Positions 5,424 through 21,711 of a stretch of 43,811 nucleotides of DNA are shown piece after piece. Source of the stretch: Sphingomonadales bacterium (GTDB taxonomy: Bacteria > Pseudomonadota > Alphaproteobacteria > Sphingomonadales > Sphingomonadaceae); the NCBI GenBank assembly GCA_012032285.1, contig JAAURJ010000023.1, forward strand, positions 1 through 43,811, read 5' to 3'. A program made the position numbers and the translations under genes. The notes under the pieces are model-generated. The model ran no database searches. It saw nothing but the letters and a program-made list of their open reading frames with translations, and was not told where the DNA came from. The stretch's first letter is position 1. Every line of letters begins with the position of its first letter.

Positions 5424-6575
5424 GTGCAAAAAATGCATATTGTCATAACGACTGCTGGAACCAGCGGTGATGCCATACCTTTTGTTGCCATTGGTAAAGA
5501 GCTGATAGCTCGTGGTTATAAAGTGACATTGATGACCAGCCGGGATCATGAAATGCTGGCGCGGAAAAATGGACTTGATTTTATGCCGACGGGGGATGCG
5601 GATATGCCGCAAATAGGCCGCGATGAACGTGCCTTTTTCCGCGACCAGCTTTTCCCCGCCTATGTTATGATCGAAAAGCATATCGCTACTTTGCGAGCCA
5701 ATGGTGAAGAGGTTTTCGGTGTAGTCCGTGTGGGCAATTGGGGCGGGTTAATGGCGTGCGAACGGCATCAACTGCCTTTTGTGATCATGGTTCCGCAGCC
5801 CGCATCCATTTGGGGATATGGACAACCAATTTGCGATGAAGACCGAGTTCTGGTCAACAATTGGCGGCATTCCATCGGGTTGCATATGGTGACAGGCTAT
5901 ACCATTCCTGAACCTGCTATTCTGACTATTGGTTTGTTTCCGGACTGGTTCGGTTTCCCTGATACCGAAAGAATGCCGCGGGGGATATGCACTGGTTTTC
6001 CCTTTTTGGATTCGGATCAGAAGGTGCTGCCGCCGGAGATAGAATCCTTTATAGAAAATTATGGGCCGCCTGTTGTTTTTACAGCAGGTACAGGGGTTCA
6101 GGATATTGAAAAATTTGCCGGAGTCGCGCGTGAATTCCAAAGGAAAACTGACCGCCCGGTTATTTTTTTAAGCCATTATTGCAAAACCATTGGCGAAACC
6201 GAAAACACTATGTTTCGGGTACTTCCCTTTTTGGATCACAGGTTGCTCTTTCCCAGTGCGGCGATGGTTGTTCATAATGGCGGCATCGGGGTCATTGCGC
6301 AGGCGATACGCGCCGCCGTGCCGCAACTGGTGGTCCCTCTGGTCTGGGATCAACCGGACAATCGTGACCGGATAGAGGCGCTTGGAATTGGCTGTGGAAT
6401 CGAACTTGCTGATCTTTCAGCCACCGGATTACAGTTGGCTTTGGAGCATTTTGAAACGATGGACCGTAAACCGTTGCATCTTGCGGCTGCAGCGGTAAGG
6501 GGCGAAAATGCCGCAAGCCTGTGTGCCGATCAGATAGAAAGCGCCATAGCAAAGCCGTTAAAAAAGACAGCATAA
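5424..6575 (+). CDS. GT1-family (UGT-like) glycosyltransferase, paralog A
   Basis: A 383-residue GT-B fold enzyme. The N-terminal Rossmann half begins HIVITTAGTSGDAIPFVAIG, typical of UDP-glucuronosyl/sterol/macrolide glucosyltransferases. The C-terminal half has AAMVVHNGGIG (H284) followed by PQLVVPLVWDQPDNRDR, the nucleotide-sugar donor pocket. It should move a sugar from a nucleotide donor to a hydroxyl of a small, often lipophilic acceptor in the cytosol. The start is GTG 5424, with GAGAGGA five bases upstream; the ATG at 5433 is too far from it. It converges on the ABC exporter (3 bases between stops). Its paralog lies just beyond that exporter, which points to two related sugar additions in one product. 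Confidence 0.85.
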   Translation: MQKMHIVITTAGTSGDAIPFVAIGKELIARGYKVTLMTSRDHEMLARKNGLDFMPTGDADMPQIGRDERAFFRDQLFPAYVMIEKHIATLRANGEEVFGVVRVGNWGGLMACERHQLPFVIMVPQPASIWGYGQPICDEDRVLVNNWRHSIGLHMVTGYTIPEPAILTIGLFPDWFGFPDTERMPRGICTGFPFLDSDQKVLPPEIESFIENYGPPVVFTAGTGVQDIEKFAGVAREFQRKTDRPVIFLSHYCKTIGETENTMFRVLPFLDHRLLFPSAAMVVHNGGIGVIAQAIRAAVPQLVVPLVWDQPDNRDRIEALGIGCGIELADLSATGLQLALEHFETMDRKPLHLAAAAVRGENAASLCADQIESAIAKPLKKTA

Positions 6576-6578
6576 AAT

Positions 6579-8357
6579 CTATAATTTTTGCGCTGCGACC
6601 ATTTTGGCAAATTTGCCTTTAGCAGCAATCAACGCATCGAAACTACCCCTTTCGATAATACGCCCTTTGTCGATGACAAAAATAACATCTGCACCGCGCA
6701 CTGTGATTAACCGATGGGCGATGATGATTGTGGTGCGGTTTTTGCGGCGGGTTTCAATTAAGTTTTGTATCTTGGTTTCCGTTATCGCGTCGAGTGCGCT
6801 GGTTGCTTCATCGAGAATCAATATCGGTGCGTCTTTGAGCAAAGACCGCAGTAAACCCAAACGTTGCCTCTCGCCTCCGGATATTGTGCGGCCACTATGG
6901 GCCAATACTTCATCCCACCCCTCACGCTCTTCAGACAGAAAATGTGTCAGATCTGCAAGTTGGAGCAATTCCTCCAATTCATCCAGAGTCGCATCATGTT
7001 TTCCTAGCCGTAAATTTTCGGCCAAGCTTTGCTGCAGGATCGGGGAGTCCTGAAACACCACGGAGATGGATCGGCGCAACGATGCCAGCGTCATATCCTT
7101 TACATTGATGTTATCAATAAAAATCGCGCCGCTTTGCGGGTCCCATAAACGGCATAGCAAACCGACAAGCGTGCTTTTGCCGCCACCTGTTTCACCGACA
7201 AGAGCAATGGTTTGTCCAGCTTTCACCTCAAAGCTGATATCCTTAACCAATGGTTTAGTACCGCTATGAGCGAAATTGACATTTTGAAAGCGTATATCGC
7301 CCTTGGCATGGGACAACTCAATTGCATCATCGCGTTCAGCCATCACATCCTGTGAATCTAGGATATGAAAAAAATTGACCAATATTTGCCGGTGGACCAA
7401 CAATTGCGTGGCAAAGGAGGTTAATTGTTCAATCCGCGATATGACCAGACCGGCAAAGCTGGTAAATGTGACCAATTCACCGATGCTAGTTTGACCCCAA
7501 TAGAATAAATATGCACCCAAAACAAAAATCGCGAGCAATGCTAAAGCCGAAAAAGCCCGGTTGAGCACATAGGCTGTCGCCCATTTTGTCAGCACCGGAA
7601 ATTGGATATCCAAAAATTCGCCGACACGGCGCTGAAAAATATGGATCGATGCCCCAACTTTATCATAGCTTTGCAATAAGGACGCATTGTTGACCGTATC
7701 ATAAAAGTGGGTGGCAATTTTCCGATCAACATCATAGGCCGCACGCTGCCCTGCATCGGTAACCACGGCAAAATAGATATTTACTATCAGGAACAGCAGA
7801 ACCAGAAATATTAACAACAGCGACAAGGGCGGATTTAAGAAGGTCATCACCGGGAAAAGGATGGCGATGGTCATGATGCTGGATGCGTGTTCCCTGAATA
7901 TCTGCAACCACATATTATATAGGTAATGATTCGCCTCCATCATATAGCGTGCCAAAGCACCGGCGGGCTGACGCTGATGAAATGCTTGTGAGAGCGACAT
8001 AACGTGCCGTAAATATTGGCGGGTCACATCCCATCGGCTAAATTGCACTAAACGGTCGGTTTTTAGCGCGATCATGTAACCCACGACCAACCCGATCAGA
8101 TTGACGATGGCCAATAGCGCGATGATCCGCCATATTTCGGCTAGACCGCTTTGTTGCTTATCGGCCAATTGTCCGAATATATCGATCAAATGACCGAATA
8201 AAATCGGTTCTGTCACTCGCAAGCCAGCTAACAGAAAACTGCCTAGCAATATCAGCCGCAATGACCGGCCGTCACTATCTATCATCCTGATGGCCCGCAG
8301 AAACATTTTCTGCAGTTGCAGGTCTTTTAGCAGCTGGAAATAGTGCAAAGGCGGCAT
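6579..8357 (-). CDS. ABC exporter, fused transmembrane and ATPase domains
   Basis: 592 residues with a type I exporter half-transporter layout. Residues 35-320 hold the hydrophobic membrane domain. The ATPase domain follows with Walker A GETGGGKST, signature SGGERQ, Walker B ILILDE and the switch His in IIIAHR. It should act as a homodimer exporting an amphipathic molecule across the inner membrane (MsbA and drug exporters are the closest functional types). An AGAGG ribosome site precedes ATG 8357. It is the last gene of the minus-strand operon radical SAM - monooxygenase - glycosyltransferase - exporter, 24 bases after paralog B, so the cargo is probably the glycosylated product of this cluster. 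Confidence 0.88.
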   Translation of the reverse strand: MPPLHYFQLLKDLQLQKMFLRAIRMIDSDGRSLRLILLGSFLLAGLRVTEPILFGHLIDIFGQLADKQQSGLAEIWRIIALLAIVNLIGLVVGYMIALKTDRLVQFSRWDVTRQYLRHVMSLSQAFHQRQPAGALARYMMEANHYLYNMWLQIFREHASSIMTIAILFPVMTFLNPPLSLLLIFLVLLFLIVNIYFAVVTDAGQRAAYDVDRKIATHFYDTVNNASLLQSYDKVGASIHIFQRRVGEFLDIQFPVLTKWATAYVLNRAFSALALLAIFVLGAYLFYWGQTSIGELVTFTSFAGLVISRIEQLTSFATQLLVHRQILVNFFHILDSQDVMAERDDAIELSHAKGDIRFQNVNFAHSGTKPLVKDISFEVKAGQTIALVGETGGGKSTLVGLLCRLWDPQSGAIFIDNINVKDMTLASLRRSISVVFQDSPILQQSLAENLRLGKHDATLDELEELLQLADLTHFLSEEREGWDEVLAHSGRTISGGERQRLGLLRSLLKDAPILILDEATSALDAITETKIQNLIETRRKNRTTIIIAHRLITVRGADVIFVIDKGRIIERGSFDALIAAKGKFAKMVAAQKL

Positions 8358-8381: not shown

Positions 8382-9551
8382 CTATGTCCGGGTGGGACAG
8401 GCGGTTTTACAATAACGTTCAATTATATCAGCCGCCATAATGATCCCGTCACCTTGGCAAGCAGCCTTTTGTGCCAACAATAGCAGCTTTGGGTTAATAT
8501 GATCTAATAAGCGGATAACAGGTAATATAATATCTACCGATAGATTTTCCGGCTCAACAATATGGCCGATGCCCAACGCTTTGACCCGTGCTGCATTTTC
8601 CGGTTGATCCCATACATAAGGGATAACCATTTGCGCGATGCCAGCACGCATGGCCTGTACGGTAACCCCAATTCCACCATTATGGATGACCATGGCGGAA
8701 CGCGAAAATAAGCACGCATGGTCGGCATAGCTTAGCCCAAAGAAATTATCATCCCCCTGGTGTGGCGCACCGGCATAGGCGGCGGATAAGAAAACCACAG
8801 GACGTTTGGATTTTTGAGCCACCCCGCGGGCTATAATTTCAAATTTAGTCGCATCCTTTATTCCGGTGCTCAAGCCAAAAATAATAGGCGGACCAAAACG
8901 ACTGATAAATTCGTCTAGATCAGATGGCAGGCCTTTGTCTTGTGTCCTCTGCACTGGAAAAGCGGTACATTCACCCGCTGCTGACGACAGGCTTTCAGGA
9001 TAGCCAAACCAATGCGGGAATAGCGCGATTTTGGTCAACGCGGCTTCGTGAACACCTTTGCCTTGAATTGCAGGAAGCGCCTGTTCATGCCTGAATTTGT
9101 TTAGTAAGAGCAAATCTTCGCTATCAATCGGGTTGCCCTCTTCCCAAATAGCATCGGGTTGCAGAAGAATATTGATAAGACCAATATCATATTTTTCGCA
9201 AGCCGCTGCTGCTCCCCAAGTTCCGAAGCGCGAAACCACAAGGATATTAGGGTTTTGGCTGGCCATTTCGCCAATATGTTCTGCAGTTCGATAAGCAGCG
9301 GGAATCAACTGCTGCGCTGTAAATTCTTGCAGGTCGCAGCCTATCTGGTCCATTTCCGGGTCGCAAATAGCGTGAAATTCAATCCTACCATTTTCTGCTA
9401 ATGGTTGATGATCGCTGTTGCTTATAATCTGTGTCCGAAAGCCGCGATCTTGCATCTCTTCGGCCAGGGCAATGAATGGGATGGCATCCCCCTTCGTTCC
9501 TAATGTTGCGAAAATTATAAGCGGTGCCGCTACAGTATCTGCCACGGTCAT
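8382..9551 (-). CDS. GT1-family (UGT-like) glycosyltransferase, paralog B
   Basis: About 389 residues, clearly related to paralog A along its length: LGTKGDAIPFIAL versus TSGDAIPFVAI, LFPHWFGYPE versus LFPDWFGFPD, and AMVIHNGGIGVTVQAMRAG with PYVWDQPENAARVKALGIG in the donor pocket. ATG 9549-9551 overlaps the stop of the monooxygenase gene by four bases (ATGA), which indicates translational coupling and rules out the longer frame reaching 9644. Likely a cytosolic transferase acting on the same scaffold as paralog A, with a different position or sugar. Acceptor and donor are unknown. Confidence 0.85.
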   Translation of the reverse strand: MTVADTVAAPLIIFATLGTKGDAIPFIALAEEMQDRGFRTQIISNSDHQPLAENGRIEFHAICDPEMDQIGCDLQEFTAQQLIPAAYRTAEHIGEMASQNPNILVVSRFGTWGAAAACEKYDIGLINILLQPDAIWEEGNPIDSEDLLLLNKFRHEQALPAIQGKGVHEAALTKIALFPHWFGYPESLSSAAGECTAFPVQRTQDKGLPSDLDEFISRFGPPIIFGLSTGIKDATKFEIIARGVAQKSKRPVVFLSAAYAGAPHQGDDNFFGLSYADHACLFSRSAMVIHNGGIGVTVQAMRAGIAQMVIPYVWDQPENAARVKALGIGHIVEPENLSVDIILPVIRLLDHINPKLLLLAQKAACQGDGIIMAADIIERYCKTACPTRT

Positions 9552-11116
9552 TGCGCCGCCGTATCCATAGGCATTTGAACTTCGTCTTTTACGCTGACCG
9601 TTTGCTCCATCCGCATCCGGTAGGGCAGCATAGGCTCTATCCATTTGCTTTCGGGCACTTGGCTTGCTCGTGTCTCATCTCCCTGACTAATCTGTCCTGT
9701 TGCAACAAGTCCTGCTCTCGCCTTAGGTGGCAGCGATGCCAATATACGAATTCGGATATCGGCCAGTTTTGCGAGATCATCAAAGGCACATGGCGCTTTG
9801 CTTGGGGTTTTCGATGCCAGTCTAGCCGGTTGCACATTACCTGATATCAATGTCCAATAATGAGCAAATTCTGTTTGTGGATCGGCAATTGTTCGGTTCA
9901 TCAATGAAAGGCGAATAGTTTCCAGCCAGCAATCATAAAATCTTTTGTTCCGTAATGCTGACATATTCTGATCGCTCCACCGAGCCATTTCGGCCTCCGG
10001 CGGTAGAACAAAACTCCCATCAAAAACCCGCAATGCCCATCCTGCAATCGCTTCAAAATAGGGGCAGGCCGTGCCGAACGCTTCGGTATCGACCGGAGTG
10101 TTTATGATAGCAAGGCTGGGATCGGGCCAATAGATAAAATGTTCGTATAAATGTTTGCGGTCAAAGCCCTCAATAAAGCTGTAATCGGGCCAGCCATAGC
10201 CAATGCATTGGATGATCCGGTCATATTTTTCCACTTTGTCATCGGCAAAAACAACCTCTGCGCTGGCGTCCAAAAACTGAGTTGCCGGGCGCAGGCTAAC
10301 CAAGCCCTTTTCGACCGCATTTACAATTTTGTCATTCACATGGACGGCATTGGGGAAACCCGGATCGGGCATCATATTGCTGCGTCGGCAGGCAGCGATA
10401 TGATCAGGAGCAATTTGCTCAAGCAGGCGGATATAGTCATCATATGACATTTCATCGATAGACAGGCGTCCGGCGTAAGAAAATAAAGCATCATTATAAT
10501 GGCGCCCACAAAAACGCGGCAGGAATAGCGCCTTGCGCCGGACGGACCAGTGCACCATATGCCCTGCTTCGCCCAGTTCAGAGGCAATGTCCGCACCGCT
10601 CACCCCGCCACCAATGACCAATATTTTCTTGCCGATAAAATCATCTGGCCCGCGATAATCTTTCGCGGTCAGAATTTTACTGTTGCTTGCTTCGGCCTGC
10701 ACTAGTTTTTGAGGAACCCAAAGCTCTCCGCTTGCGACCATTACCGCATCAAAATAATCAGTTCCATGCGGACTTTCCAATCGCCACTGGCCTCCTTCTT
10801 TGGCCATATGGGTTACCGGGCATTGAAATCTGATATGCGGCTCAATATCGAAATGCTTCGAATAGGCGCTCAGATAATCATGGACTTCATCCAGTGATAG
10901 AAAATCATTGTTGGAAATGGGCGCAAAATCGGAAAAGGGAAAGCTCAATTTGGAGCTTTGCATTTTTACGCCGGGATAAGCGCCGCCGCTGGCAGGGTTC
11001 CATATACCGCCGACCGATGTGTGACGTTCAAATACAATGATATCATGGCCGCGCACCAGCGCCTGCCTTGCGCTAGTGATCCCTGCCGGACCAGCACCGA
11101 TAATTGCGATTTTCAT
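9548..11116 (-). CDS. Flavin-containing monooxygenase-like oxidoreductase
   Basis: 522 residues. The FAD Rossmann motif GAGPAG lies at residues 7-12 (KIAIIGAGPAGITSA), with VGGIWNP downstream as in flavin monooxygenases and Baeyer-Villiger enzymes. A second dinucleotide fold VIGGGVSGADIASEL should bind NADPH. The usual FMO fingerprint FxGxxxHxxxY/W just before the second fold is altered here (ILTAKDYRGPDDFIGKK) and lacks the histidine. The family uses NADPH and oxygen to oxidise N, S or carbonyl groups. The residues after 400 form an extension rich in charged residues. Coupled by stop-start overlap to glycosyltransferase B and 21 bases downstream of the radical SAM gene. Confidence 0.8.
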   Translation of the reverse strand: MKIAIIGAGPAGITSARQALVRGHDIIVFERHTSVGGIWNPASGGAYPGVKMQSSKLSFPFSDFAPISNNDFLSLDEVHDYLSAYSKHFDIEPHIRFQCPVTHMAKEGGQWRLESPHGTDYFDAVMVASGELWVPQKLVQAEASNSKILTAKDYRGPDDFIGKKILVIGGGVSGADIASELGEAGHMVHWSVRRKALFLPRFCGRHYNDALFSYAGRLSIDEMSYDDYIRLLEQIAPDHIAACRRSNMMPDPGFPNAVHVNDKIVNAVEKGLVSLRPATQFLDASAEVVFADDKVEKYDRIIQCIGYGWPDYSFIEGFDRKHLYEHFIYWPDPSLAIINTPVDTEAFGTACPYFEAIAGWALRVFDGSFVLPPEAEMARWSDQNMSALRNKRFYDCWLETIRLSLMNRTIADPQTEFAHYWTLISGNVQPARLASKTPSKAPCAFDDLAKLADIRIRILASLPPKARAGLVATGQISQGDETRASQVPESKWIEPMLPYRMRMEQTVSVKDEVQMPMDTAAQ

Positions 11117-11137: not shown

Positions 11138-12340
11138 TTAAATGAAAAAGTCATAATCATCACGCACTTCGGACTTCAGTCCTTCGGACATTTTTGCGAT
11201 TGTCAGGTTGGAGCTATGCCGTGCACAATGGAAGCGGCAATCTTTGGCAGGATCTAATTTTCGGGTAACAGCATCCTTCCACATCGAACGCAACGATGTA
11301 TCGGTCACATCACCAATCAGGCCTTTTTCGCTTCCGCGATGATAGGCGCAGCTATAAACACCACTGGGCGTTATGGTTGCCCGCAATTCGGCAATATGGC
11401 AGCTATTATAGTTTTTTGGCTGCTCTCTGTCGGCACCCGTTTTCAGCGCGGTCCAGGTCGACGAGCGCAATACTCTGAAACTTTCATCTTCTATTTTTGC
11501 AAGCGCATCTAGCTGATCCTGAACTTTTTGGATATCGGCTGCAGCTTCTTCAATCACAAAATGGCCATCATCAAAAACAGCCTTCACCTCAAGATAATCA
11601 CACCCTATCGACTTGGCGAGCTGACCGGCCTTTAGAACCTGATCATAATTGGTTTCGTATATAACGTTATTCTCATCACGTCGCTGCATCAAAAGGAAAG
11701 AATAGCCCAGTCGGCCCTTTTTTACTTTAGCAAGATTTGTAATATTCTCGATGACTTTGGGAAAAACCGAAACCTTACGACCACTAGGCCGAAAACGGTC
11801 ATAGATTTCGGGGGATGCCGCATCCATTGATACGCGGATCCAGGACATACGCTCCGCTAATATTTCAATATGCCTATCGATTAATGTGCCATTTGTGACC
11901 ATGCCGACCTTAACGCCGCCGTCGCTGAGCGTAGTAATGATCTTACCAATGCTACGATGCATCAACGGCTCACCGCCACCGATTAAAATCACACCCTTAA
12001 CGCCTGCTTCTACCAGTTCTTCAGCTAGTCTTTCGATACGCAGCGCGGAAAATTGTCCTTTGTTCAGAACGCCGCTGCTAATGCATTCTGGACAGGCAAG
12101 GTCGCAAAAAGTTGTCGGGTCCAAATCAACGACCAACGGTGCATCCAATCTTTGCCCTTGCGCAACTTTTAGTGCGCTGGCCACGATGGATTTTTGAAAT
12201 AATTTTTCTGCCAGTTCTAATTTCGATTCAATCGGTGCAGCGTGCGCTAATTTTGGTTTGGCTAAATCAATTTGATCTATAATGCGATCGGGTGCGCTGA
12301 TTTTGCTTCTGTTTTCGGGGGCTAATGACTCTGAATTCAT
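11138..12340 (-). CDS. Radical SAM protein with SPASM-like C-terminus
   Basis: 400 residues. TTFCDLACPEC holds the CxxxCxxC cluster motif (C79, C83, C86) that ligates the SAM-binding [4Fe-4S] cluster, followed by the GGEP-type motif IGGGEPLMH. The last 90 residues contain several Cys (YNSCHIAEL, YSCAYHRG, KDCRFHCARH) typical of SPASM/Twitch auxiliary clusters. It should generate a 5'-deoxyadenosyl radical. Relatives mature peptides, rearrange or dehydrogenate sugars, or modify small metabolites, and the substrate here is unknown. First gene of the four-gene minus-strand operon ending in the ABC exporter and divergent from the GH3 gene at 12516. An AAGGGA site lies upstream of the ATG. Confidence 0.82.
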   Translation of the reverse strand: MNSESLAPENRSKISAPDRIIDQIDLAKPKLAHAAPIESKLELAEKLFQKSIVASALKVAQGQRLDAPLVVDLDPTTFCDLACPECISSGVLNKGQFSALRIERLAEELVEAGVKGVILIGGGEPLMHRSIGKIITTLSDGGVKVGMVTNGTLIDRHIEILAERMSWIRVSMDAASPEIYDRFRPSGRKVSVFPKVIENITNLAKVKKGRLGYSFLLMQRRDENNVIYETNYDQVLKAGQLAKSIGCDYLEVKAVFDDGHFVIEEAAADIQKVQDQLDALAKIEDESFRVLRSSTWTALKTGADREQPKNYNSCHIAELRATITPSGVYSCAYHRGSEKGLIGDVTDTSLRSMWKDAVTRKLDPAKDCRFHCARHSSNLTIAKMSEGLKSEVRDDYDFFI

Positions 12341-12418: not shown

Positions 12419-12515
12419 AATATTAGATTGCATTTCGCGACAGACAATTGGTAAGGCGATTTGAACAATAGGATAGAGAAATGCAATCATTGTCATTGGA
12501 GAAAATGAGCCAGAG

Positions 12516-15095
12516 ATGGATTTCACAATAAAAGATTTTCATTTTGAATATAGAGATCATTGGCCCAAAGTTGGTAAGGCAAAAGACTTATATTGCCACA
12601 ATGAAATTACAATAAAATCGATTCTCGATCAAATGACCATTGAAGAAAAAATTGGTCAGATGATCCAACCTGAATTGTTCCAGATTACTCCAGATGAGCT
12701 TGAATTATATAAATTTGGTTCTGCCTTAAATGGGGCAGGTCTTTTCCCTGGGGATGATGCCCGCGCACCCCAAGAAAAATGGGTCAAAATGGTCGATGAT
12801 TTTTGGATGGCCTCACAGAGAGCCTATAAAGAACGGCCGTTCAACATTCCTTTTATGTGGGCGACGGATGCCGTTCATGGCCATAATAATTTATTCGGCG
12901 CGACCATATTCCCCCACAATATCGGGCTTGGCTGCGCAAACGACCCGTATTTGGTACACCGGATTGGGATAGCGACCGCAAAAGAGGTCGCTACAACTGC
13001 AATCGATTGGACCTTTGCCCCCAATGTTGCCGCTCCACGCGACTATAGGTGGGGACGGCATTTTGAAGGTTATTCGGAATCTCCTGCGGTGATTGCGTCT
13101 TATGCTGATGCTATGGTTCGCGGTTTACAAGGTGATTTTGTTGGATATGACCCTGATGACAGTGTCATTGCCTGCGCCAAGCATTGGATCGGGGATGGCG
13201 CCACCCATCTTGGGATTGATCGGGGCGATGCGCGCTGCAGTGAAGAGATGCTGCTAAACATTCATGCGGCAGGTTATATTGCAGCGATAGCAGCGGGTGT
13301 GAATACGATCATGGTATCCTTTAGCGGATGGGACGCCGCTGAAAATTACGACCATAGCCCTCAGTTACCTGGAAGTTACAACAACAAGCTGGCTGGCAGT
13401 CATTATCTGATTTCGGATGTTTTGAAGACGCAATTGGGGTTTGACGGTTTGGTGATTACCGATTGGGATGCCCATGCGGATGTCAGCCGATGTGATTTTG
13501 GCGAAGCTGCTTATGTTATTAATGCGGGTGTGGACATATTGATGGTGTCGCCCCGCCATGGCTGGATGGGATTGTTAGGCAGTTTGAAAAACCATATTGA
13601 AAGCGGCCATATACCCATGGCTCGCGTTGATGATGCCGTAACCCGGATATTGCGGGTGAAAATGCGCGCTGGCCTGTGGGAGAAGCCGCGCCCTGTAGAA
13701 CGGCCGAAGGTCAAAAACAAATCGGTTATCGGCTGTTATGAACACCGCGCTTTGGCAGAGGAGGCGATAAAAAAATCAGCTGTTTTGCTCAAAAATAATA
13801 GTGCGACCTTACCAATAAGGCAGGATGCGAAGATATTAGTCGTAGGGAGTGCGGCGGACAGCATACAAAAGATATGTGGTGGTTGGACTTTAAGCTGGCA
13901 AGGGACTGAAATCACTCAGGATGATATTCCTCATTCATCCACCATTGGAGAGGCGATTGCAGAGATTGTTGGCGCAAAGAACTGCACTGTGGATGCGGAT
14001 TTATCTTATGCCGACCCTGTCGCATTTGATATGGTTATTGCGGCAATCGGTGAGGATGCCTATGCGGAAATGCGCGGCAATATCAGACCGTGGCGAAGCT
14101 TAAGCTATGCCAAGCTAAAAACCAGCTATAGCCGCGATTTGGCAATATTGCAGAAGATACGAAGCCAGTTGTCCGACGCTAATGTTCGAACCAGGGTTGC
14201 GACTTTATTTTTTGGCGGACGGCCCCTTTATGTTAGCGAAGAGATTAACTTGTCCGATGCCTTCGTAGCAGCGTGGCTTCCCGGTCCTTATTCCAAGGCA
14301 CTTGCGGCCTTGTTGTTTGAGGCAAAGAATGGAGAGCTGCAATATGATTTTTCCGGCAAATTGAGCTTTTCTTGGCCTAAGGATTCGGCCTCATTTCAAC
14401 TCAACCACCGACCAGCGGCTTTGGCGGCGCAAAATTTAGCACCATTTGATGATCCTATGGATGCGCAGACAAGAGCGCTTTTCCCATTTGGCTATGGATT
14501 AAGCTATGCCAGCCCTGCATCCGATATGGGACCAGTGCCAGTTGAAGAGGTCGATCATAGTGAAATCATTCCTGCTGCCAAAGTAGGTTTGGATATTTTC
14601 GAAGACGGAATGAGCGATTTTGACTGGATGATTTGCGGCCATAATATTTGGGCTGGACAAAGGTTGAATTTTCAATCTGGTATCAATTTGTTAATTGTAG
14701 AAATTCAGCCCAACATTGCCGAAGCCAGAATCTTGGATTTGAACTTTAAAGGTTTCGCAGCTTTGGTCTATGCTCGTTTTCCAGATGCGATGCCGCGCGA
14801 TTTTAGGCCCTATATCGCTGCCAGTGCCTTTTTTGAAATAGACACTGACATCCTCTCGCCCCCCGAAGGGCCGCTTTATCTTGCGCTTCATGACGATTAT
14901 CCTGGGCAACCCGGATTTGATATTGCACCTATGCTTTGTGACCATGGGCCTGGAGCGGCAATATTGCAGATTCCAATGCACGAAATTAGCGCAACCGGTA
15001 TGGAATTGAACAATATTGATACCGCCTTCATGCTCTATTCCGAATCCAAGGCCCACTTATCGATCCGTAGCATAAAGATCAAATTGCCTCGATAG
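12516..15095 (+). CDS. GH3 family beta-glucosidase-like hydrolase without signal peptide
   Basis: 859 residues with the GH3 (beta/alpha)8 plus C-terminal alpha/beta layout and an extra C-terminal ExoP-type galactose-binding-like domain. WATDAVHGHNN and FAPNVAAPRDYRWGR are family signatures. The nucleophile should be D316 in VITDWDAH, and the acid/base is probably E518 in GEDAYAEMRGN, where the paralog has GD. The first residues (MDFTIKDFHFEYRDH) give no signal sequence or lipobox, so the enzyme is expected in the cytosol, unlike the second GH3 copy. It should remove beta-linked glucose or a related sugar. It is 13 bases upstream of the PIG-L deacetylase gene, so both probably form one transcript. 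Confidence 0.85.
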   Translation: MDFTIKDFHFEYRDHWPKVGKAKDLYCHNEITIKSILDQMTIEEKIGQMIQPELFQITPDELELYKFGSALNGAGLFPGDDARAPQEKWVKMVDDFWMASQRAYKERPFNIPFMWATDAVHGHNNLFGATIFPHNIGLGCANDPYLVHRIGIATAKEVATTAIDWTFAPNVAAPRDYRWGRHFEGYSESPAVIASYADAMVRGLQGDFVGYDPDDSVIACAKHWIGDGATHLGIDRGDARCSEEMLLNIHAAGYIAAIAAGVNTIMVSFSGWDAAENYDHSPQLPGSYNNKLAGSHYLISDVLKTQLGFDGLVITDWDAHADVSRCDFGEAAYVINAGVDILMVSPRHGWMGLLGSLKNHIESGHIPMARVDDAVTRILRVKMRAGLWEKPRPVERPKVKNKSVIGCYEHRALAEEAIKKSAVLLKNNSATLPIRQDAKILVVGSAADSIQKICGGWTLSWQGTEITQDDIPHSSTIGEAIAEIVGAKNCTVDADLSYADPVAFDMVIAAIGEDAYAEMRGNIRPWRSLSYAKLKTSYSRDLAILQKIRSQLSDANVRTRVATLFFGGRPLYVSEEINLSDAFVAAWLPGPYSKALAALLFEAKNGELQYDFSGKLSFSWPKDSASFQLNHRPAALAAQNLAPFDDPMDAQTRALFPFGYGLSYASPASDMGPVPVEEVDHSEIIPAAKVGLDIFEDGMSDFDWMICGHNIWAGQRLNFQSGINLLIVEIQPNIAEARILDLNFKGFAALVYARFPDAMPRDFRPYIAASAFFEIDTDILSPPEGPLYLALHDDYPGQPGFDIAPMLCDHGPGAAILQIPMHEISATGMELNNIDTAFMLYSESKAHLSIRSIKIKLPR

Positions 15096-15108: not shown

Positions 15109-15861
15109 ATGAACGATCAAAAAGAAAAGTCAGAGGCGTTCGACCAGGCGGACAAAGGTTCGATCATTGTTTTTGCACCGCATCCTGACGATGAAGTTAT
15201 CGCGTGTGGCGGGACGATTTTAAAGCGGCGGGCAGAAGGTTATGTCGTTCATATTTGTTTTGCGACCGATGGATCTCAGTCACATAAAGCTGTTTTGGGG
15301 CTGGATGTCCCCAGCGCACAGGATTTAATCCGTATCCGCAAAGTGGAAGCACTGTGCGCAGCCGCAAAACTGGGTGTGGAATCAGCACTTGTTACATTTG
15401 TCGGGGCACGTGATACAAGGTTGATTGACGGTCTGAACCAATTAGAGCGGACAATATCGAGCTTGTTTTCAGCGATCCCAGATATATGCGAAATTTTTAT
15501 TCCGCATGAGCGGCGCGAGCTAAATGCGGATCATATCCTAACCGGGCGGACGGTTTTGGAACAGATCGTTAAAAGCGGTATCAATCCGGTTATTTATAAA
15601 TATGTTGTTTGGAACGCTGAAATTGAGGCCAGCTTTGGTTATGCGAATAGGCAAGCCGTTCCCGAAATAGATGAGACGCAGGAGGTGTGCATCGCGGAAG
15701 ATATTGGCGAATATCTGGAGCAGAAATATGAGGCTTTTCTGGAGCATAAGACGCAAACGACTTTATTTGTTCCCGAGCAGCAGCGCACTGTAGTTCCGCC
15801 ATTATTATTGGAACAAGTACGCAGTAATAAATTTGAAGAGTTCTGGGTTGTGCGCCAATAG
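15109..15861 (+). CDS. PIG-L/LmbE-family zinc-dependent de-N-acetylase
   Basis: 250 residues. VFAPHPDDEVIACGGT carries the AHPDDE zinc-binding and catalytic motif near residues 22-35, and NADHILTGRTV supplies the later metal histidine. Known members deacetylate GlcNAc-containing conjugates (GlcNAc-PI, GlcNAc-inositol, acetylated aminoglycoside intermediates, bacillithiol and mycothiol precursors). No signal peptide, so cytosolic. It follows the GH3 gene by 13 bases. Together with the deacetylase-like gene at 762 this hints that the handled glycoside contains an N-acylated amino sugar, which is an inference only. Confidence 0.85.
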   Translation: MNDQKEKSEAFDQADKGSIIVFAPHPDDEVIACGGTILKRRAEGYVVHICFATDGSQSHKAVLGLDVPSAQDLIRIRKVEALCAAAKLGVESALVTFVGARDTRLIDGLNQLERTISSLFSAIPDICEIFIPHERRELNADHILTGRTVLEQIVKSGINPVIYKYVVWNAEIEASFGYANRQAVPEIDETQEVCIAEDIGEYLEQKYEAFLEHKTQTTLFVPEQQRTVVPPLLLEQVRSNKFEEFWVVRQ

Positions 15862-15909: not shown

Positions 15910-15926
15910 GCACCGCTATCTTCGCC

Positions 15927-15955
15927 TTGACAGTCTGCACTACAAATGACAACGA
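15927..15955 (+). promoter_or_regulatory. Shared upstream element TTGACA-N12-AATGACAACGA, copy 1
   Basis: TTGACA (15927-15932) and AATGACAACGA (15945-15955) are separated by 12 bases exactly as at 19064-19092, before the GH3 lipoprotein. The unspaced parts agree at all 17 positions and the base after TTGACA is G in both. No -10 hexamer is found at normal spacing from TTGACA, so it may be a half-site rather than a -35. TGACAACG is the half-site of the palindrome at 12405. Confidence 0.5.
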
Positions 15956-15983: not shown

Positions 15984-18212
15984 ATGTCGCCATTAAATTG
16001 TGCTACCGATGTGGATTGTAATGTTTTCTCGGGGCATGATAACCTCGGTCCTTCCTATTGCGGCAGACAAACAGGTGTTTTTGCCGTTCCTATCATGCTT
16101 CGAAAATCATTGCTGACGGCATTTTTGGCATTGGCTGTTCATTGGACATATGCATCTCCTGTTCTGGCGGATATAGTGCAGGAGGAGGCTAGCGACACGG
16201 CTTTCCCCAGTCTGTCTAGTGCGTCCATTGCGCCGAATGTCAGTGATGGCAAACAAATTTATACACCCGACCAATTCGCCCGCTTTGCGCCGCGTACGGC
16301 CTTTGACATGGTGGTGCGCATCCCCGGTTTCTCGATTAGCGGGGTTAGTAGCAACCGCGGCCTTGGCGAAGCCAGTCAAAATGTGCTGCTAAATGGTCAG
16401 CGGATAACCGGAAAAACCAATGATGCGGGAAATTTGTTGAGCAAAACCCCGGCTGAAGCAGTGGTTCGCCTAGAGATTGTTGACGGCGCGACGTTGAATA
16501 TACCGGGTTTGACAGGACAGGTGCTCAATTTGGTCACAAAAAGTGTTGGGATCAGCGGAAATTTTTTGTGGCGCAATTATTTTGTTGCCAATTCAGAAGT
16601 GCTTTGGACCGCCGGAGAGGTGAGCATTTCGGGCAAGCTTGGCCGTGGCGATTTCACTTTGGGGTTGGCCAACAACGCAGGCAGTTACCGGGCGGGCAGT
16701 TCGGGTGTTGAGCAGGTGTTTGATGCGGACAAAAATCTGTTATTCTTTAATGAAAGGGATAATCGGTATAATGGGGATCGGCCGACTTTAACAGCCACCT
16801 ATGCCTCAAAAAGTGCAGCCGGGAACAATTTTAACGCCAATATATTATTTCTTTTGTCGGAAACGAATGGCTATCAAAATTACCTTCGCAAAACCGACGG
16901 TGCCCCCGATATTTTTGAAAGCAATCAATTTAATAATGATGAACACGGTCTGGAATTGGGCGCGGACTATGAATTTGATTTGGGTGGCGGTCGATTAAAA
17001 CTGATCGGCTATGAACGCTATATATCCAATCCCAGCGATGCGACATTCAGCCGTTTGTTCGATGATGGCAGTGACAATAGTGCGACACGTTATGCCAGCA
17101 ACCGGAAGAGCGGAGAGAGCGTTGTTCGGGCCGAATATGGATGGAAAACGGGAAATTCGGATTGGCGTATTTCAGCAGAAGGGGCCTATAATTTCCTGTC
17201 GTCAACAGCCAATTTATCGGATGTCGCGGGTCCGCAACCAATTTTCATACCGTTGAACAATGCTGATACTGATGTTGACGAAAAAAGGGCTGAAATCATT
17301 TTAAGCTATGGCCGGCCGCTTAGCCAAAATCTTACGCTTCAAGCACAAGTCGGGGCTGAGTATAGCAAACTCAGCCAAAGCGGCATTGGTGCGGGATCCT
17401 CACGGCAATTTTACAGGCCGAAAGGGTCGCTTTCCTTGGCTTGGAAAGCAGCGGGTAATTTGGACATAAGTGCCCGGTTGGAACGGGCAATCGGACAGCT
17501 TGATTTTGGAGATTTTCTGGCTTCAGTCGATTTGCGCGATTCCAATAATAATATTGGCAATCCCGAACTTGTGCCGCCGCAAAGCTGGTTGGCCTTGGCT
17601 GAAATCAACCGCAGTCTTGGCAAAACCGGGTCAATCAACGTCAAGGTGAAGCAGGAATGGATCAGCGATCTGGTGGAGCAGAAACCTTTTGGGCCGGATG
17701 CCGAGTCGCCGGGTAATCTTGACGGAACCGCAAGGCGATTGAGCGCCGAGTTGCAATCCACATTTTTCCTTGATGCGTTAGGAATAAAGGGCGGCAAGCT
17801 TGAGCTTAGCAGCGCCTATCGACGCGGGCGTTTGATAGACCCCTTATTTCTGACATCCAGAGAGTTGAGTTCCCAGCAGCGTTTCTCGATAAGCTTGGGG
17901 TATAGCCATGATATTCAAAAATCCAATTGGAGCTATGGTTTTGGCATGAACGATAGCGTGACAAGCGATTCATTTCGGTTGGATTTTGCAAACAGAGCTT
18001 TTTTTAGCGGCCCGCAATATTATGCTTTTATCAGCAACCGCGATCTTTTCGGGCTCGAAACATCTTTCACGGTCAATAATATTTCGAACAGGCGCGAGCT
18101 ATATGATCAAATATTATATGTCGGCCGCCGTGATGGTGATATAAGCCAAGTCCGCAGCGGAACCCTAAAAACGGGCATTGGCGCAAGCCTTGCAGTTAAG
18201 GGGGAATTTTGA
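15984..18212 (+). CDS. TonB-dependent outer-membrane receptor
   Basis: About 742 residues from ATG 15984, which has AGGAGG seven bases upstream. A classic signal peptide (MLRKSLLTAFLALAVHW, ending near SPVLA) starts only at an internal ATG at 16095 without a ribosome site. The RBS-supported protein therefore has a 37-residue N-terminal extension with three Cys. The plug domain follows (YTPDQFARFAPRTAFDM, VRIPGFSISG, VLLNGQRITGK, VRLEIVDGATLNIPG), then a beta-barrel ending in a C-terminal Phe as expected for BAM-assembled proteins. It should import a large or scarce ligand across the outer membrane, powered by TonB. Neighbours (GH3, deacetylase, methyltransferase) suggest a glycoside ligand. 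Shares an upstream element with the GH3 lipoprotein. Confidence 0.85.
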   Translation: MSPLNCATDVDCNVFSGHDNLGPSYCGRQTGVFAVPIMLRKSLLTAFLALAVHWTYASPVLADIVQEEASDTAFPSLSSASIAPNVSDGKQIYTPDQFARFAPRTAFDMVVRIPGFSISGVSSNRGLGEASQNVLLNGQRITGKTNDAGNLLSKTPAEAVVRLEIVDGATLNIPGLTGQVLNLVTKSVGISGNFLWRNYFVANSEVLWTAGEVSISGKLGRGDFTLGLANNAGSYRAGSSGVEQVFDADKNLLFFNERDNRYNGDRPTLTATYASKSAAGNNFNANILFLLSETNGYQNYLRKTDGAPDIFESNQFNNDEHGLELGADYEFDLGGGRLKLIGYERYISNPSDATFSRLFDDGSDNSATRYASNRKSGESVVRAEYGWKTGNSDWRISAEGAYNFLSSTANLSDVAGPQPIFIPLNNADTDVDEKRAEIILSYGRPLSQNLTLQAQVGAEYSKLSQSGIGAGSSRQFYRPKGSLSLAWKAAGNLDISARLERAIGQLDFGDFLASVDLRDSNNNIGNPELVPPQSWLALAEINRSLGKTGSINVKVKQEWISDLVEQKPFGPDAESPGNLDGTARRLSAELQSTFFLDALGIKGGKLELSSAYRRGRLIDPLFLTSRELSSQQRFSISLGYSHDIQKSNWSYGFGMNDSVTSDSFRLDFANRAFFSGPQYYAFISNRDLFGLETSFTVNNISNRRELYDQILYVGRRDGDISQVRSGTLKTGIGASLAVKGEF

Positions 18213-18249: not shown

Positions 18250-19005
18250 ATGCCACAGGTTGACGATAAAATTCTGAAAGACTTGCCCTGCAAAGCGGAT
18301 TTGGAAGCAATTGCGCTATCGCTTGGCCAACGGAACGAGGTTGCCAAAAGGGTCATCGAAGGATTGCAATCAGGACGATTTTTCCATCCGGATGGCCGCA
18401 GTGATACCGTTGATATCCGTCTCGATCTGGATCAACTGGGTTTAATTGCTCATTTGGCTCCAAAGGCGCCCAAGCCGCTATGTATAGATATTGGTTTTGG
18501 CATGGGATCCTCTTCGGCCATCTGCCTTGCTGCCCGTGAGGATGCCGGGCTACCCCTTGATCATGTTGTTTTCGATCCTTTTGGCCTTGGCGGCGGGCGC
18601 GGAGAGGTTGTTGAAGAATATTTACACCAATCCTATGGAGACGCATTTCAACGTATATGGAAATTGTCCGAACTGGGTCTTCCTGCTTTATGCGAGGAGC
18701 GCGGCGTAGAGTCTGCCGGTTATGTGTTTATCGATGGCGATCACCGTTTCGAAGCGGTGATGGCGGACTTTGTATTTGCCGATTTATTATGTGCCCCGGG
18801 TGGTTTTATCATATTGGATGATGCCTCTTTTCCTGCGATTGAAACTGTGGTCAATTTTATCCGTGCCAATCGGCATGAGATGGAGGTGCATATGTTCCCG
18901 GCTGAAAATTGCTGCCTGCTTCATAAGACACGGCACCGTGGCGGAGAGTGGTCGGACTTTGAACCTTTTGCTGTGCCGCACCGTAGCGGATGGACCCGCG
19001 CCTGA
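18250..19005 (+). CDS. Class I SAM-dependent methyltransferase (Methyltransf_24-like)
   Basis: About 251 residues. LCIDIGFGMGSSSAICLA is motif I of a Rossmann-fold methyltransferase, VVFDPFG an acidic second strand, YVFIDGDHRFEAVMADF the metal or substrate strand seen in Methyltransf_24-type enzymes, and GGFIILDD a late beta-strand. A longer frame begins at a TTG (18178) inside the receptor gene. ATG 18250, 37 bases after the receptor stop, is more likely. It may O-methylate a sugar or phenol in the cluster product; no acceptor can be read from the sequence. Probably co-transcribed with the receptor. Confidence 0.75.
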   Translation: MPQVDDKILKDLPCKADLEAIALSLGQRNEVAKRVIEGLQSGRFFHPDGRSDTVDIRLDLDQLGLIAHLAPKAPKPLCIDIGFGMGSSSAICLAAREDAGLPLDHVVFDPFGLGGGRGEVVEEYLHQSYGDAFQRIWKLSELGLPALCEERGVESAGYVFIDGDHRFEAVMADFVFADLLCAPGGFIILDDASFPAIETVVNFIRANRHEMEVHMFPAENCCLLHKTRHRGGEWSDFEPFAVPHRSGWTRA

Positions 19006-19063
19006 TAACCTCGCTCTTAGATCGTTGCCTTGATCGTTCTATTTGTTGCTTGCCGGGCAAGTC

Positions 19064-19092
19064 TTGACAGGAGCGGCGGATAATGACAACGA
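19064..19092 (+). promoter_or_regulatory. Shared upstream element TTGACA-N12-AATGACAACGA, copy 2
   Basis: TTGACA at 19064-19069 and AATGACAACGA at 19082-19092, with the same 12-base spacing as at 15927-15955. It lies 37 bases before the ATG of the GH3 lipoprotein. It supports joint regulation of receptor and hydrolase. Confidence 0.5.
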
Positions 19093-19128
19093 CGGACATA
19101 ATATTTTTTGAGAGATGGGATATTTCGA

Positions 19129-21711
19129 ATGATTACCAAAGTTCAAGCCAGCCTTTGCGCAATTTCCTTGGCCTATCTGGCCGGGTGTACCGCGACAGCG
19201 GGTAAAGAGATGGAGGCGGCTATGCCTGCTCCTCGTGCCGCACCGGTCGCAACCGCTGTTCCTGCTATGCCCGCCGGTTTTGATAACGCGGCCCCCGACA
19301 AACCCGGTGTTGCGCATCCCGACCAATGGCCGAGTTATGAATATCCCTGGAAACCGAGTGCGGAGGCTGAGGCCCGAATTCGCGCACTAATGGCCAAAAT
19401 GACGGTGGAAGAAAAAGTGGCGCAAACGGTTCAGGCCGATCTATGCTGCATCACTCCTGAAGAGTTAAAAAAATATAAGCTAGGTTCGATTTTGGTGGGC
19501 GGTAATTCCGGCCCATATAATGATGACTTTGCTCCCGCGCCGATGTGGCTGAAGGCGGCAGATGAATTTTATGAAGCATCAGTGGACAAAAGCGACGGCG
19601 GCGTCGGCGTCCCGGTTATCTGGGGCATTGATGCAGTCCATGGCCACTCCAACATTATCGGCGCGACACTGTTTCCGCATAATGTCGGCCTAGGTGCGAT
19701 GCGCGATCCTGAATTGATTGAACGGATCGGCCATGTGACGGCAAAGGAAATTCGTGTGACCGGTCAGGAATGGACCTTTGCGCCTACCGTTACTGTGCCG
19801 CGTGATTATCGTTGGGGCCGTTCTTATGAAGGCTATTCCTCCAATCCCGAATTGGTGACCAGCTATGTCGGCGCTATGCTGCGCGGGCTTCAAGGGGCGC
19901 CTGACAATGAAAATCTTCTGGCGCAAGACCGGGTGATTGCATCGACCAAGCATTTCCTTGCCGATGGCGGGACAAAGGATGGCGTGGATCAAGGCAATGC
20001 CGAAATTTCCGAAAAAGAACTGCGTGATATTCATGGTCTTCCCTATGGTGCGGCGATTAAGGGCGGCGTGGCAACGGTGATGATCAGCCATTCCGCATGG
20101 CAGGGCCGCAAAATGACGGGCAATGACAGTTTGATAACCGGCGTTTTGAAAAACCGGATGGACTTTGACGGCTTTGTCGTTTCCGATTGGAATGCCCATG
20201 GCCAGGTCGAAGGATGCACCAATGACCAATGCCCCAAAGCCATGAAGGCTGGGTTGGATATGTATATGGCCCCCGATAGTTGGAAAGCCGTCTATGACAA
20301 TCTGGTGACAGAGGTGAAAGCGGGAAGCATCCCTATGGAACGGCTGGATGACGCGGTTTACCGGGTGTTGATGGTCAAGGAACGGGTGGGCCTGTTCAGC
20401 AATGGCAAGCCTTCTTCGCGCAAGCTTGCTGGACAATGGGATTTGCTGGGCGCTGCTGAACACCGTACGGTGGCGCGCGAGGCGGTTCGCAAATCGCTCG
20501 TCCTGCTGAAAAATGATGGCGTTCTGCCGCTTAAGGCCAATGCGCGGTTGTTGGTCGCGGGCGATGCGGCCAATGATATTTCGCGTCAATCGGGCGGCTG
20601 GACTCTTTCTTGGCAGGGTAAAGATGTGCCGGAAAAATATTTCCCCGGTGCAACCACTATCGGCAAAGGTTTGATGGATGCGGTGAAGGCGGCGGGCGGT
20701 TCTGCGGAAATGTCCGAAGACGGTAGTTATAAACAAAAACCCGATGCGGCCATTGTGGTGTTTGGCGAGGAATCCTATGCCGAATTCCAAGGTGACCTTA
20801 GCTCGCTGCAACTGGCGCCGGAACTGACCAAGCCTTATGAAACGATGAAGAAGCTGAAGGCTCAGGGCATTCCTGTCATTGCCGTGATGGTAACCGGACG
20901 GCCTTTGTTCGTTAACCCTGCGCTTAATGCAGCCGATGCCTTTGTTGTGACCTGGCTTCCTGGCTCAGAAGGGGACGGCGTGGCCGATGTGCTGGTGGGC
21001 GATACCATGGGTAAGGCCCGCTATGATTTTACCGGCAAATTGCCAACAGGTTGGCCGCAAAAGGCAAAAATTCAGGACGGCGAGCTTTATCCATTTGGCT
21101 ATGGCCTAAGCTATGCCTCACCCAAAACCGCATGGACCAAGTTGAGCGAGGATCCAGGGGTAGAGAATAATGGCGATAGCCGCGTCTGGTTTACCAACGG
21201 CGTGCCCGCCAGCAGCTGGTCGCTGATGATTGGCGAAGCGGATTTCAAAAATGAAATCCGTATTAGCACTGTGCCCAGCGAGGCGGCCGAAGGGCGGATG
21301 AAAATCACATCCTCCTTCTTCAAGGTGCAGGAAGGCGCCCGCCGGTTCGAACTATCATCGGGCAGCACCGCGATTTCGCTGCGCAGTTTCAACCCGGTCA
21401 ACATTTCGAAGGAAATGAATGCAGAGCTTTATCTGATGTTTACCAGCAAGGTGAATAAAGCGCCGCAAAGCGCAATGCTTGGCATGGGATGTGAAGGCGG
21501 GGATTGTAAAAACGGTTTTGTGCCGATTGCGATGCCGGTGTCAAAAGACTTCAAAACCTATGGTTTGCCCCTGAAATGCTTGCGGGATAAGGGCGTTGAT
21601 ATGACGAAAATATCCGCCTCTTTCATACTGACGCTCAGCGGAGCTTCGGATGTGGAATTGGGCGAGGTGTTCATGGGCACTGACCCAGCCAATATCCTGC
21701 CTTGTAAATAA
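19129..21711 (+). CDS. GH3 family exo-beta-glucosidase, predicted lipoprotein
   Basis: About 860 residues. ATG 19129 has GGGA eight bases upstream and starts a lipoprotein signal MITKVQASLCAISLAYLAGC with the lipid-modified Cys at residue 20; the longer TTG frame from 19108 is unlikely. GH3 signatures are WGIDAVHGHSN, FAPTVTVPRDYRWGRSYEGY, the nucleophile D353 in VVSDWNAHGQ and the probable acid/base E552 in GEESYAEFQGD. An ExoP-type C-terminal domain ends the protein. The family removes glucose from the non-reducing end of beta-glucans or glucosides. Location: periplasmic face of the inner membrane or outer membrane. It is a paralog of the cytosolic GH3 at 12516 and ends at a strong terminator. 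Confidence 0.9.
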   Translation: MITKVQASLCAISLAYLAGCTATAGKEMEAAMPAPRAAPVATAVPAMPAGFDNAAPDKPGVAHPDQWPSYEYPWKPSAEAEARIRALMAKMTVEEKVAQTVQADLCCITPEELKKYKLGSILVGGNSGPYNDDFAPAPMWLKAADEFYEASVDKSDGGVGVPVIWGIDAVHGHSNIIGATLFPHNVGLGAMRDPELIERIGHVTAKEIRVTGQEWTFAPTVTVPRDYRWGRSYEGYSSNPELVTSYVGAMLRGLQGAPDNENLLAQDRVIASTKHFLADGGTKDGVDQGNAEISEKELRDIHGLPYGAAIKGGVATVMISHSAWQGRKMTGNDSLITGVLKNRMDFDGFVVSDWNAHGQVEGCTNDQCPKAMKAGLDMYMAPDSWKAVYDNLVTEVKAGSIPMERLDDAVYRVLMVKERVGLFSNGKPSSRKLAGQWDLLGAAEHRTVAREAVRKSLVLLKNDGVLPLKANARLLVAGDAANDISRQSGGWTLSWQGKDVPEKYFPGATTIGKGLMDAVKAAGGSAEMSEDGSYKQKPDAAIVVFGEESYAEFQGDLSSLQLAPELTKPYETMKKLKAQGIPVIAVMVTGRPLFVNPALNAADAFVVTWLPGSEGDGVADVLVGDTMGKARYDFTGKLPTGWPQKAKIQDGELYPFGYGLSYASPKTAWTKLSEDPGVENNGDSRVWFTNGVPASSWSLMIGEADFKNEIRISTVPSEAAEGRMKITSSFFKVQEGARRFELSSGSTAISLRSFNPVNISKEMNAELYLMFTSKVNKAPQSAMLGMGCEGGDCKNGFVPIAMPVSKDFKTYGLPLKCLRDKGVDMTKISASFILTLSGASDVELGEVFMGTDPANILPCK

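Follow-up and report, generated by a model that had tools for sequence, protein, structure and literature searches.

Why do two glycosyltransferases, an exporter, a radical S-adenosylmethionine enzyme (rSAM), a flavin monooxygenase (FMO), a deacylase, and two glycoside hydrolases of family 3 (GH3) lie side by side in a member of the Sphingomonadaceae? We addressed this question for the locus around positions 5424–21711 of contig JAAURJ010000023.1 (Sphingomonadales bacterium, assembly GCA_012032285.1), whose 43,811 nucleotides are called the window here. We give about an even chance to an explanation in which the locus is a specialised-metabolite cluster, acquired horizontally as an island foreign to the host family, that is switched on by beta-glucan breakdown products and whose exported product is a small N-oxygenated amino-sugar glycoside.

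A gene core common to the window and actinobacterial loci

A pattern scan of 84,980 species with the rSAM, which detects only loci carrying one of two peptide patterns, returned 56 loci. Close relatives of the window FMO, of its PIG-L/LmbE-type deacylase (PIG-L), and of the first of its two GH3 proteins (GH3a) were all present in 17 of them, with identities to the window proteins of 50–57% for rSAM, 44–52% for FMO, 42–47% for PIG-L, and 46–49% for GH3. Sixteen of these complete loci have the order rSAM-FMO-MFS-GT2-PIG-L-GH3, where MFS is a major facilitator superfamily transporter and GT2 a family 2 glycosyltransferase; in L023, the GH3 gene is on the opposite side. The complete loci lie among L013–L030, L064, and L065, and gene calls in the actinobacterial loci were mechanical. 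Since rSAM, FMO, PIG-L, and GH3 recur together in 17 of 56 loci, the window cluster is not a loose assembly. The suggestion of the first-pass annotation, that these are sugar-modifying genes belonging together, is thus borne out by a co-inherited core with its transporter and glycosyltransferase in actinobacteria.

MFS and GT2 relatives were found in all 17 complete loci and in none of the 34 rSAM-only loci used as controls (L031–L055, L057–L063, L066, and L011; 669,887 bases in total, several of them short contigs). A wider set of 22 loci also took in L019 and L025, incomplete clusters whose contigs end beside the rSAM gene, and L012, a Steroidobacteraceae metagenome-assembled genome (MAG) in which, as in L024, the rSAM and FMO genes stand at a contig end; L067, a partial match at a contig end, entered no later count. 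Of the 22 loci, 19 had an MFS relative and 18 a GT2 relative (0/34 in the controls): the GT2 match of L056 has only 30% identity and is located elsewhere, and L012, L019, and L025 have neither gene on the stretch examined. A GH1 beta-glucosidase gene was a neighbor in 13 of the 22 loci, a LacI regulator in six, and a CebE-like binding protein in five, each being absent from all 34 controls. The sister rSAM genes of the control loci mostly belong to another sugar-type locus, with sugar ATP-binding cassette (ABC) genes, a GHMP kinase, a NUDIX protein, an NDP-sugar epimerase, and a HAD protein.

Trees were built from rows that each represent one gene as joined tblastn pieces, not full proteins, and duplicates were omitted (L087, the same DNA as L069, from the GH3 tree; L090 and L091 from the rSAM tree). 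The window rSAM fell inside a clade of 23 rows (100/99), 20 of the other 22 being FMO-linked and the remaining two being L019 and L025; its sister was L012, the gammaproteobacterial MAG (100/98). GH3a and the 17 cluster GH3s formed a single clade of 18 rows (100/100), with two Vibrio GH3s next to it, the non-cluster actinobacterial GH3s outside it, and the host GH3s apart. When cluster genomes were searched, the cluster GH3 was the best match of GH3a in 12 of 12 (47–50%); of four rSAM-only genomes, two had no GH3a match at E ≤ 1e-30 and two had a 43% partial match and a 35% match. The window carries a proteobacterial version of a cluster family that has spread horizontally. This version shares the rSAM, FMO, PIG-L, and GH3 homologs, with a transporter and a glycosyltransferase adjoining, with actinobacterial clusters for which no product is named. 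It differs from them in that an ABC exporter and a pair of GT1-like glycosyltransferases replace the MFS and GT2 genes, neither of which stands between FMO and PIG-L here, in its additional TonB receptor, methyltransferase, and second GH3 (GH3b), and in a different operator-like site. In the open-access literature, we found no description of this cluster family or of a combination of rSAM, amino-sugar N-oxygenase, PIG-L, and cytosolic GH3.

The conserved GH3 looks cytosolic, as none of the N-termini of GH3a and the 17 cluster GH3s appeared signal-like by eye. Its acid/base loop, YAExxGD, is altered: Thr takes the place of the final Asp in all 17 cluster GH3s, and Asn does so in GH3a. The Asp is retained in the 22 other rows of the table compared, which include one duplicate and none of the ten non-cluster actinobacterial GH3s, and also in the ExoP sequence from the PDB. 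The nucleophile Asp and the acid/base Glu, at the positions expected for the family, are retained in GH3a and in the cluster GH3s. As the catalytic residues are kept and the loop is changed, GH3a is probably an active enzyme with a specialised substrate.

The low-GC island and its host-lineage additions

All ten genes named by the first-pass annotation between 5424 and 21711 were found as intact open reading frames (ORFs) at the positions it gave, and Pfam matched their family names (Table 1). Pfam was applied to 30 ORFs of the window and NCBIfam to the ten ORFs spanning 1808 to 15861; no tRNA or Rfam family was found in the window. The rSAM, FMO, GT A, and ABC exporter genes form a leftward row in which FMO and GT A overlap as ATGA. 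Rightward from a 175-base spacer shared with the rSAM gene run GH3a, PIG-L, the TonB receptor, the methyltransferase, and GH3b. GT B is set apart from the leftward row and is convergent with the exporter gene; the two GT1 proteins are paralogs, as had been proposed, with 38% identity. For GT A, the TonB receptor, the methyltransferase, and GH3b, the likely true starts, judged by eye, lie inside the ORF starts, at 9551, 16095, 18250, and 19129. Three low-GC genes adjoining the cluster gave no Pfam or NCBIfam match at E 0.001.

Table 1. Genes and candidate regulatory sites of the locus, in window coordinates.
Feature	Position	Strand	Family assignment and remarks
Radical SAM enzyme (rSAM)	11138..12340	-	Radical_SAM (Pfam); CxxxCxxC; conserved core
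FMO-type flavin monooxygenase, putative amino-sugar N-oxygenase	9548..11116	-	FMO-like (Pfam); conserved core
GT1-like glycosyltransferase A (GT 8382)	8382..9551	-	EryCIII-like/GT28-type (Pfam); start overlaps FMO stop
ABC exporter, fused transmembrane and nucleotide-binding domains (TMD-NBD)	6579..8357	-	Pfam
GT1-like glycosyltransferase B (GT 5424)	5424..6575	+	EryCIII-like/GT28-type (Pfam); paralog of A
GH3a, ExoP-type beta-glycosidase without signal peptide	12516..15095	+	GH3 (Pfam); loop YAEMRGN; conserved core
PIG-L/LmbE-type deacylase	15109..15861	+	PIG-L (Pfam), HPDDE motif; conserved core
TonB-dependent receptor	16095..18212	+	Weak Pfam match, below cut-off; local addition
Class I methyltransferase	18250..19005	+	Methyltransf_24 (Pfam); local addition
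GH3b, ExoP-type GH3 lipoprotein, host's own lineage	19129..21711	+	Second GH3 (Pfam); 59% to G400 GH3
Three low-GC genes	1808..5300	-	Polysaccharide-type nucleotidyltransferase/kinase-like by eye; adjoin cluster
Palindromic operator-like site TTGACAACGTTGACA	12405..12419	-	Divergent rSAM/GH3a promoter
Promoter motif CTTGACAG-N12-ATGACAACGA	15926..15955	+	Before TonB receptor
Promoter motif CTTGACAG-N12-ATGACAACGA	19063..19092	+	Before GH3b

The GC content of the genes from 1808 to 19005 was 44–50%, versus 53–58% for the right-flank genes measured, 54% for GH3b, and 56–58% for the P450 and deacetylase genes at the left end of the window; these values place the edge of the low-GC island approximately between the methyltransferase and GH3b. 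In drawn samples of genomes, the rSAM was found in one of 397 genomes of the host family (its own; E ≤ 1e-30), in two of 396 of the order (its own and one 29% match; E ≤ 1e-20), and in two of 398 of the phylum (its own and one 43% match; E ≤ 1e-40). The FMO was detected in one of 249 genomes of the phylum (E ≤ 1e-60) and GT A, with its paralog, in one of 119 genomes of the family (E ≤ 1e-25), each time in its own genome only. We count the absence of the low-GC island from sampled relatives among the points established from sequence. A comparison of gene neighborhoods to see whether these genes occur apart in relatives, suggested beforehand as a possible refutation, was hardly applicable because the rSAM and GT1 genes occur in no other sampled genome of the family. 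The rSAM relative in G834 (43%) lies beside ATP-grasp and GT2 genes with no FMO match in the 15 kb examined, and the match in G076 reached only 25–29%. A search of viral contigs with the single rSAM protein gave no relative; a search with the rSAM alignment gave three distant ones (L092, L093, and L094; 37–40%) on IMG/VR contigs of 110–137 kb.

On the right flank, nine genes are syntenic with G421 (52–85% identity), and G421 and G424 both keep this flank up to the gene at 22299 (homolog 52–62%). The left flank could not be matched, so that no empty insertion site was recognised. Contamination or a chimeric assembly was rejected in view of the synteny of the right flank with G421 and of a TonB receptor of the host-family type inside the low-GC part.

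The TonB receptor and GH3b are, as their relatives indicate, of host lineages. Relatives of the receptor occur in 51 of 119 host-family genomes, its own included (E ≤ 1e-40), the best being a 46% paralog in its own genome that is followed by an ABC exporter gene. The same succession of a receptor of this family and an exporter gene, Atm1-like by eye, was seen in all four host-family loci examined (L137 6899–10912, L138, L139, and L140). GH3b pairs with the GH3 of the same-genus genome G400 (100/100; 59%), not with the cluster GH3s. Its N-terminus was lipoprotein-like by eye and GH3a lacked a signal peptide, in agreement with the first-pass annotation.

Beyond the locus, positions 22959–25782 encode a VIT/VWA protein with a C-terminal anchor-like end and then a sortase; homologs of the VIT/VWA protein were found in three of 45 genomes of the genus, its own included. 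An AMP-binding enzyme (27874–29387) is split over overlapping ORFs of different frames (27874–28509 and 28455–29387) by a frameshift or a sequencing error.

Candidate regulatory sites in the two phyla

The sequence TGGGAGCGCTCCCA is described as the binding site of CebR, the cello-oligosaccharide repressor, in the portions of PMC4898821 and PMC4890002 used here. With distances counted from where the tblastn match begins, as opposed to a mapped start codon, a CebR box with at most one mismatch was found no more than 400 bp upstream of the rSAM in 12 of 21 actinobacterial cluster loci (L019 and L025 included, L012 excluded). Four more had a box within 1.8 kb, before a GH1 gene preceding the rSAM, which brings the total to 16/21 versus 0/34 controls. 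When up to two mismatches were allowed, 40 sites were detected versus 4.7 in shuffles, and three of the 34 controls had one.

In the window, the divergent rSAM/GH3a promoter contains a palindromic operator-like site, TTGACAACGTTGACA, which has no second exact copy in the host genome (2.78 Mb). G400 has a single exact copy too, in the spacer that separates the relative of GH3b from a TonB receptor gene. A variant, TTGACAAGGTTGTCA, precedes two genes of the host genome, a GH3 gene at a distance of 52 bp and a GH16 gene at 77 bp; in G400, it stands about 240 bp ahead of another GH3 match, and two further operator matches there adjoin a GntP permease and an AraC regulator. Common to the promoters of the TonB receptor and GH3b is CTTGACAG-N12-ATGACAACGA, 18 exact bases without a mismatch, a pattern that was derived from these two sites and occurred in none of 100 shuffles. 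Both promoters also have an 8-mer in common with the core promoter, in line with the first-pass grouping of these two genes with the locus.

From these CebR boxes and operator-like sites, the cluster appears to be glucan-switched in both phyla. The thaxtomin cluster of Streptomyces resembles the actinobacterial versions, and differs from the window, in having CebR sites at a specialised-metabolite cluster; the passages of PMC8914351 and PMC12527672 drawn on here place no other cluster directly under CebR. Its product is a phytotoxin made by a nonribosomal peptide synthetase, whereas the present cluster is of a sugar type.

Candidate pathway and competing readings

The rSAM was modeled with a mean pLDDT of 83.7. 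Its nearest PDB folds were DesII, then SuiB and BlsE (TM-scores 0.5–0.66); DesII ranked first, BlsE 10th, and AbmM 31st, with 14–18% identity and TM-scores of about 0.42–0.66. By sequence, BlsE came first, and the protein remained below the cut-off of each NCBIfam model among the best 25 of 52 matches. DesII, BlsE, and AbmM are sugar or nucleoside radical SAM enzymes, and DesII acts on an amino sugar. The likeness to DesII-type enzymes, which would imply radical chemistry on an amino sugar, is structural, with low identity and scores under these NCBIfam cut-offs. The earlier label of a radical SAM-SPASM protein held for the radical SAM part, but Pfam found no SPASM domain; four C-terminal cysteines (C314, C331, C368, and C372) invariant across 27 sequences suggest a smaller auxiliary-cluster domain, presumably of the type called twitch.

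The best PDB match of the FMO was 8odw (170 bits), named there "Polyketide synthase modules-related protein", which we take to be the oxime-forming Ox domain of lobatamide synthase. PMC7318616 describes related assembly lines in which a glycine primer acquires an oxime through the action of oxygenase, dehydratase, and methyltransferase domains. A 41.8% relative of the FMO was found by tblastn on E. coli plasmids: 398 plasmid records matched, 323 of them from Escherichia, and 66 of the 398 covered 80% of the query. The single plasmid inspected, a colicin plasmid of E. coli (L096 8623–13491; NZ_CP054364.1 46197–51065), has the FMO gene at the end of an operon with genes for a DegT aminotransferase, a HAD phosphatase, a Gfo/Idh dehydrogenase, and a SemiSWEET protein. 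In the PDB, this aminotransferase matched an unnamed aminotransferase best (310 bits), with NtdA second (301 bits). The operon DNA matched 541 of 5426 complete E. coli genomes, 66 of them over at least 80% of its length. This operon may make kanosamine, possibly N-oxygenated, and our search of the open-access literature on it found nothing relevant. Like the window, it has the FMO beside amino-sugar genes; unlike the window, it has no annotated rSAM, PIG-L, GH3, or glycosyltransferase and would make its amino sugar by transamination, and Pfam found no NtdA-type aminotransferase among the 30 window ORFs, which sets the window apart from kanosamine (Ntd) loci. The best named PDB match of PIG-L was diacetylchitobiose deacetylase, a weak one (28 bits). 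Because the FMO has a relative in an NtdA-containing operon and the rSAM resembles DesII, SuiB, and BlsE, an amino sugar is a likely substrate.

The following pathway would accommodate these genes. A glycosyltransferase (the two GT1 here, GT2 in actinobacteria) would join an N-acylated amino sugar, probably N-acetylglucosamine, to an acceptor; PIG-L would then free the amine, and the FMO would oxygenate that nitrogen to the hydroxylamine, oxime, or nitroso level. The DesII-like rSAM would oxidise or rearrange a sugar carbon, and the methyltransferase may cap the product. Export would be carried out by the ABC exporter here and by the MFS in actinobacteria, where the direction of transport is presumed. 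The cytosolic GH3 with its altered loop would split a pathway beta-glycoside inside the cell, thereby finishing the product or protecting the producer. We infer the control by the CebR boxes and operator-like sites, the substrate, the order of the reactions, the product, and its purpose.

Several observations weigh against this proposal. No CebR box is present upstream in L016, L017, L023, L056, and L064 (5/21 cluster loci); the window has none, its best candidate having two mismatches and lying inside a coding region, and Pfam detected no LacI-type regulator among the 30 window ORFs. With two mismatches, the operator matched eight sites in the host genome versus four for a reversed control, and 12 versus three in G400, so that part of these matches is due to chance. 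The three copies of TGACAACG in the window all lie in promoters of this locus, but seven of 100 shuffles also reached three, and two looser operator patterns occurred no more often in the window than expected by chance. The GH3 clade was tested against only ten non-cluster actinobacterial GH3s. L056 has the rSAM, a short FMO, and the MFS without PIG-L or GH3. No FMO was detectable in the 34 control loci, some of them short stretches, and the rSAM chemistry therefore need not be tied to N-oxygenation. Among the high-ranking structural matches of the rSAM are, in addition, MoaA, PqqE, and the peptide enzymes SuiB and SkfB. Finally, as the glycosyltransferases and transporters are of different families, the product may differ between the phyla.

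Four other readings were considered. The glucan-type operator sites, the TonB receptor, and the two GH3s would also suit a catabolic locus, in which GH3 and PIG-L break down an N-acylated amino-sugar beta-glucoside taken up from outside and the FMO and rSAM oxidise what remains; the CebR boxes and the GH1, LacI, and CebE genes of some actinobacterial loci agree with this, and the actinobacterial MFS could be an importer. However, both versions have a glycosyltransferase in their core, the window transporter has the architecture of an exporter, and an FMO and an rSAM are unusual in glucan utilisation; we consider a catabolic role unlikely. Slightly less likely still is the cycle put forward in the first-pass annotation by analogy with oleandomycin, in which a compound is silenced by GT1 glucosylation, passes out of the cell through the ABC exporter, loses its glucose there to the lipoprotein GH3b, and returns by way of the TonB receptor. 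The oleandomycin/OleR system likewise combines a GT1-type transferase, an ABC transporter, and a GH3 in one locus. The GT1 pair, the exporter, GH3b, and the receptor are indeed neighbors, the last two share the 18-base promoter pattern, and every TGACAACG copy of the window is in a promoter of the locus; co-regulation of this kind would permit such a loop. Yet the conserved GH3 looks cytosolic, by eye, and GH3b and the receptor are of host lineages, so that such a cycle is not supported. In addition, one GT1 reached 21.2 of 700 bits with the OleI model and the other was not listed, the two scored 33.2 and 32 of 260 bits with the MGT model, below what marks a macrolide-glucosylating GT1, and no polyketide synthase was present among the 30 ORFs scanned. 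Our search of the open-access literature found nothing useful on this parallel.

The best NCBIfam models of the exporter are cyclic glucan exporters, which, with the adjoining low-GC genes at 1808–5300, raises the possibility that it exports an envelope or cyclic glucan decorated by the glycosyltransferases. Its scores (571.1 of 733 and 463.2 of 585.4 bits) are nevertheless under both curated cut-offs and do not place it among the ChvA/NdvA glucan exporters, no glucan synthase was found among the 30 window ORFs scanned, and the transporter of the actinobacterial clusters is an MFS protein, a type that suits small molecules; glucan export seems to us improbable. Least credible is a pathway for a ribosomally synthesised and post-translationally modified peptide or a cofactor with sugar decoration, as in mycofactocin. 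SuiB is the second-best structural family of the rSAM and the mycofactocin maturase is among its weak NCBIfam matches (51 of 265 bits), but Pfam detected no precursor-binding domain, and in the stretch searched, 450 bp ahead of the rSAM, no short ORF (20–80 aa) was common to more than four of the 17 loci; a precursor peptide there was rejected accordingly. A defence-system reading was also rejected, as searches with six proteins gave only weak matches to a viperin-type rSAM and to FAD domains.

We therefore return to the acquired, glucan-switched cluster for an N-oxygenated amino-sugar glycoside. A more specific version of it, which we advance tentatively and regard as doubtful, is sugar warfare in two phyla: during beta-glucan digestion, a cellobiose or laminaribiose mimic, itself an N-oxygenated amino sugar, would block the beta-glucosidases of rivals or be taken up by them as a Trojan horse, the cytosolic GH3 with its altered loop would be the producer's resistant or detoxifying copy, and the cluster, once transferred, would have come under a local glucan operator. 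Taken together, the locus belongs to a biosynthetic cluster family that is common to actinobacteria and proteobacteria and has no named product. The CebR boxes indicate how induction of the cluster might be attempted, with cellobiose or by removal of CebR, which makes the product directly testable; it is probably a modified amino-sugar compound made during competition for plant or algal sugars.

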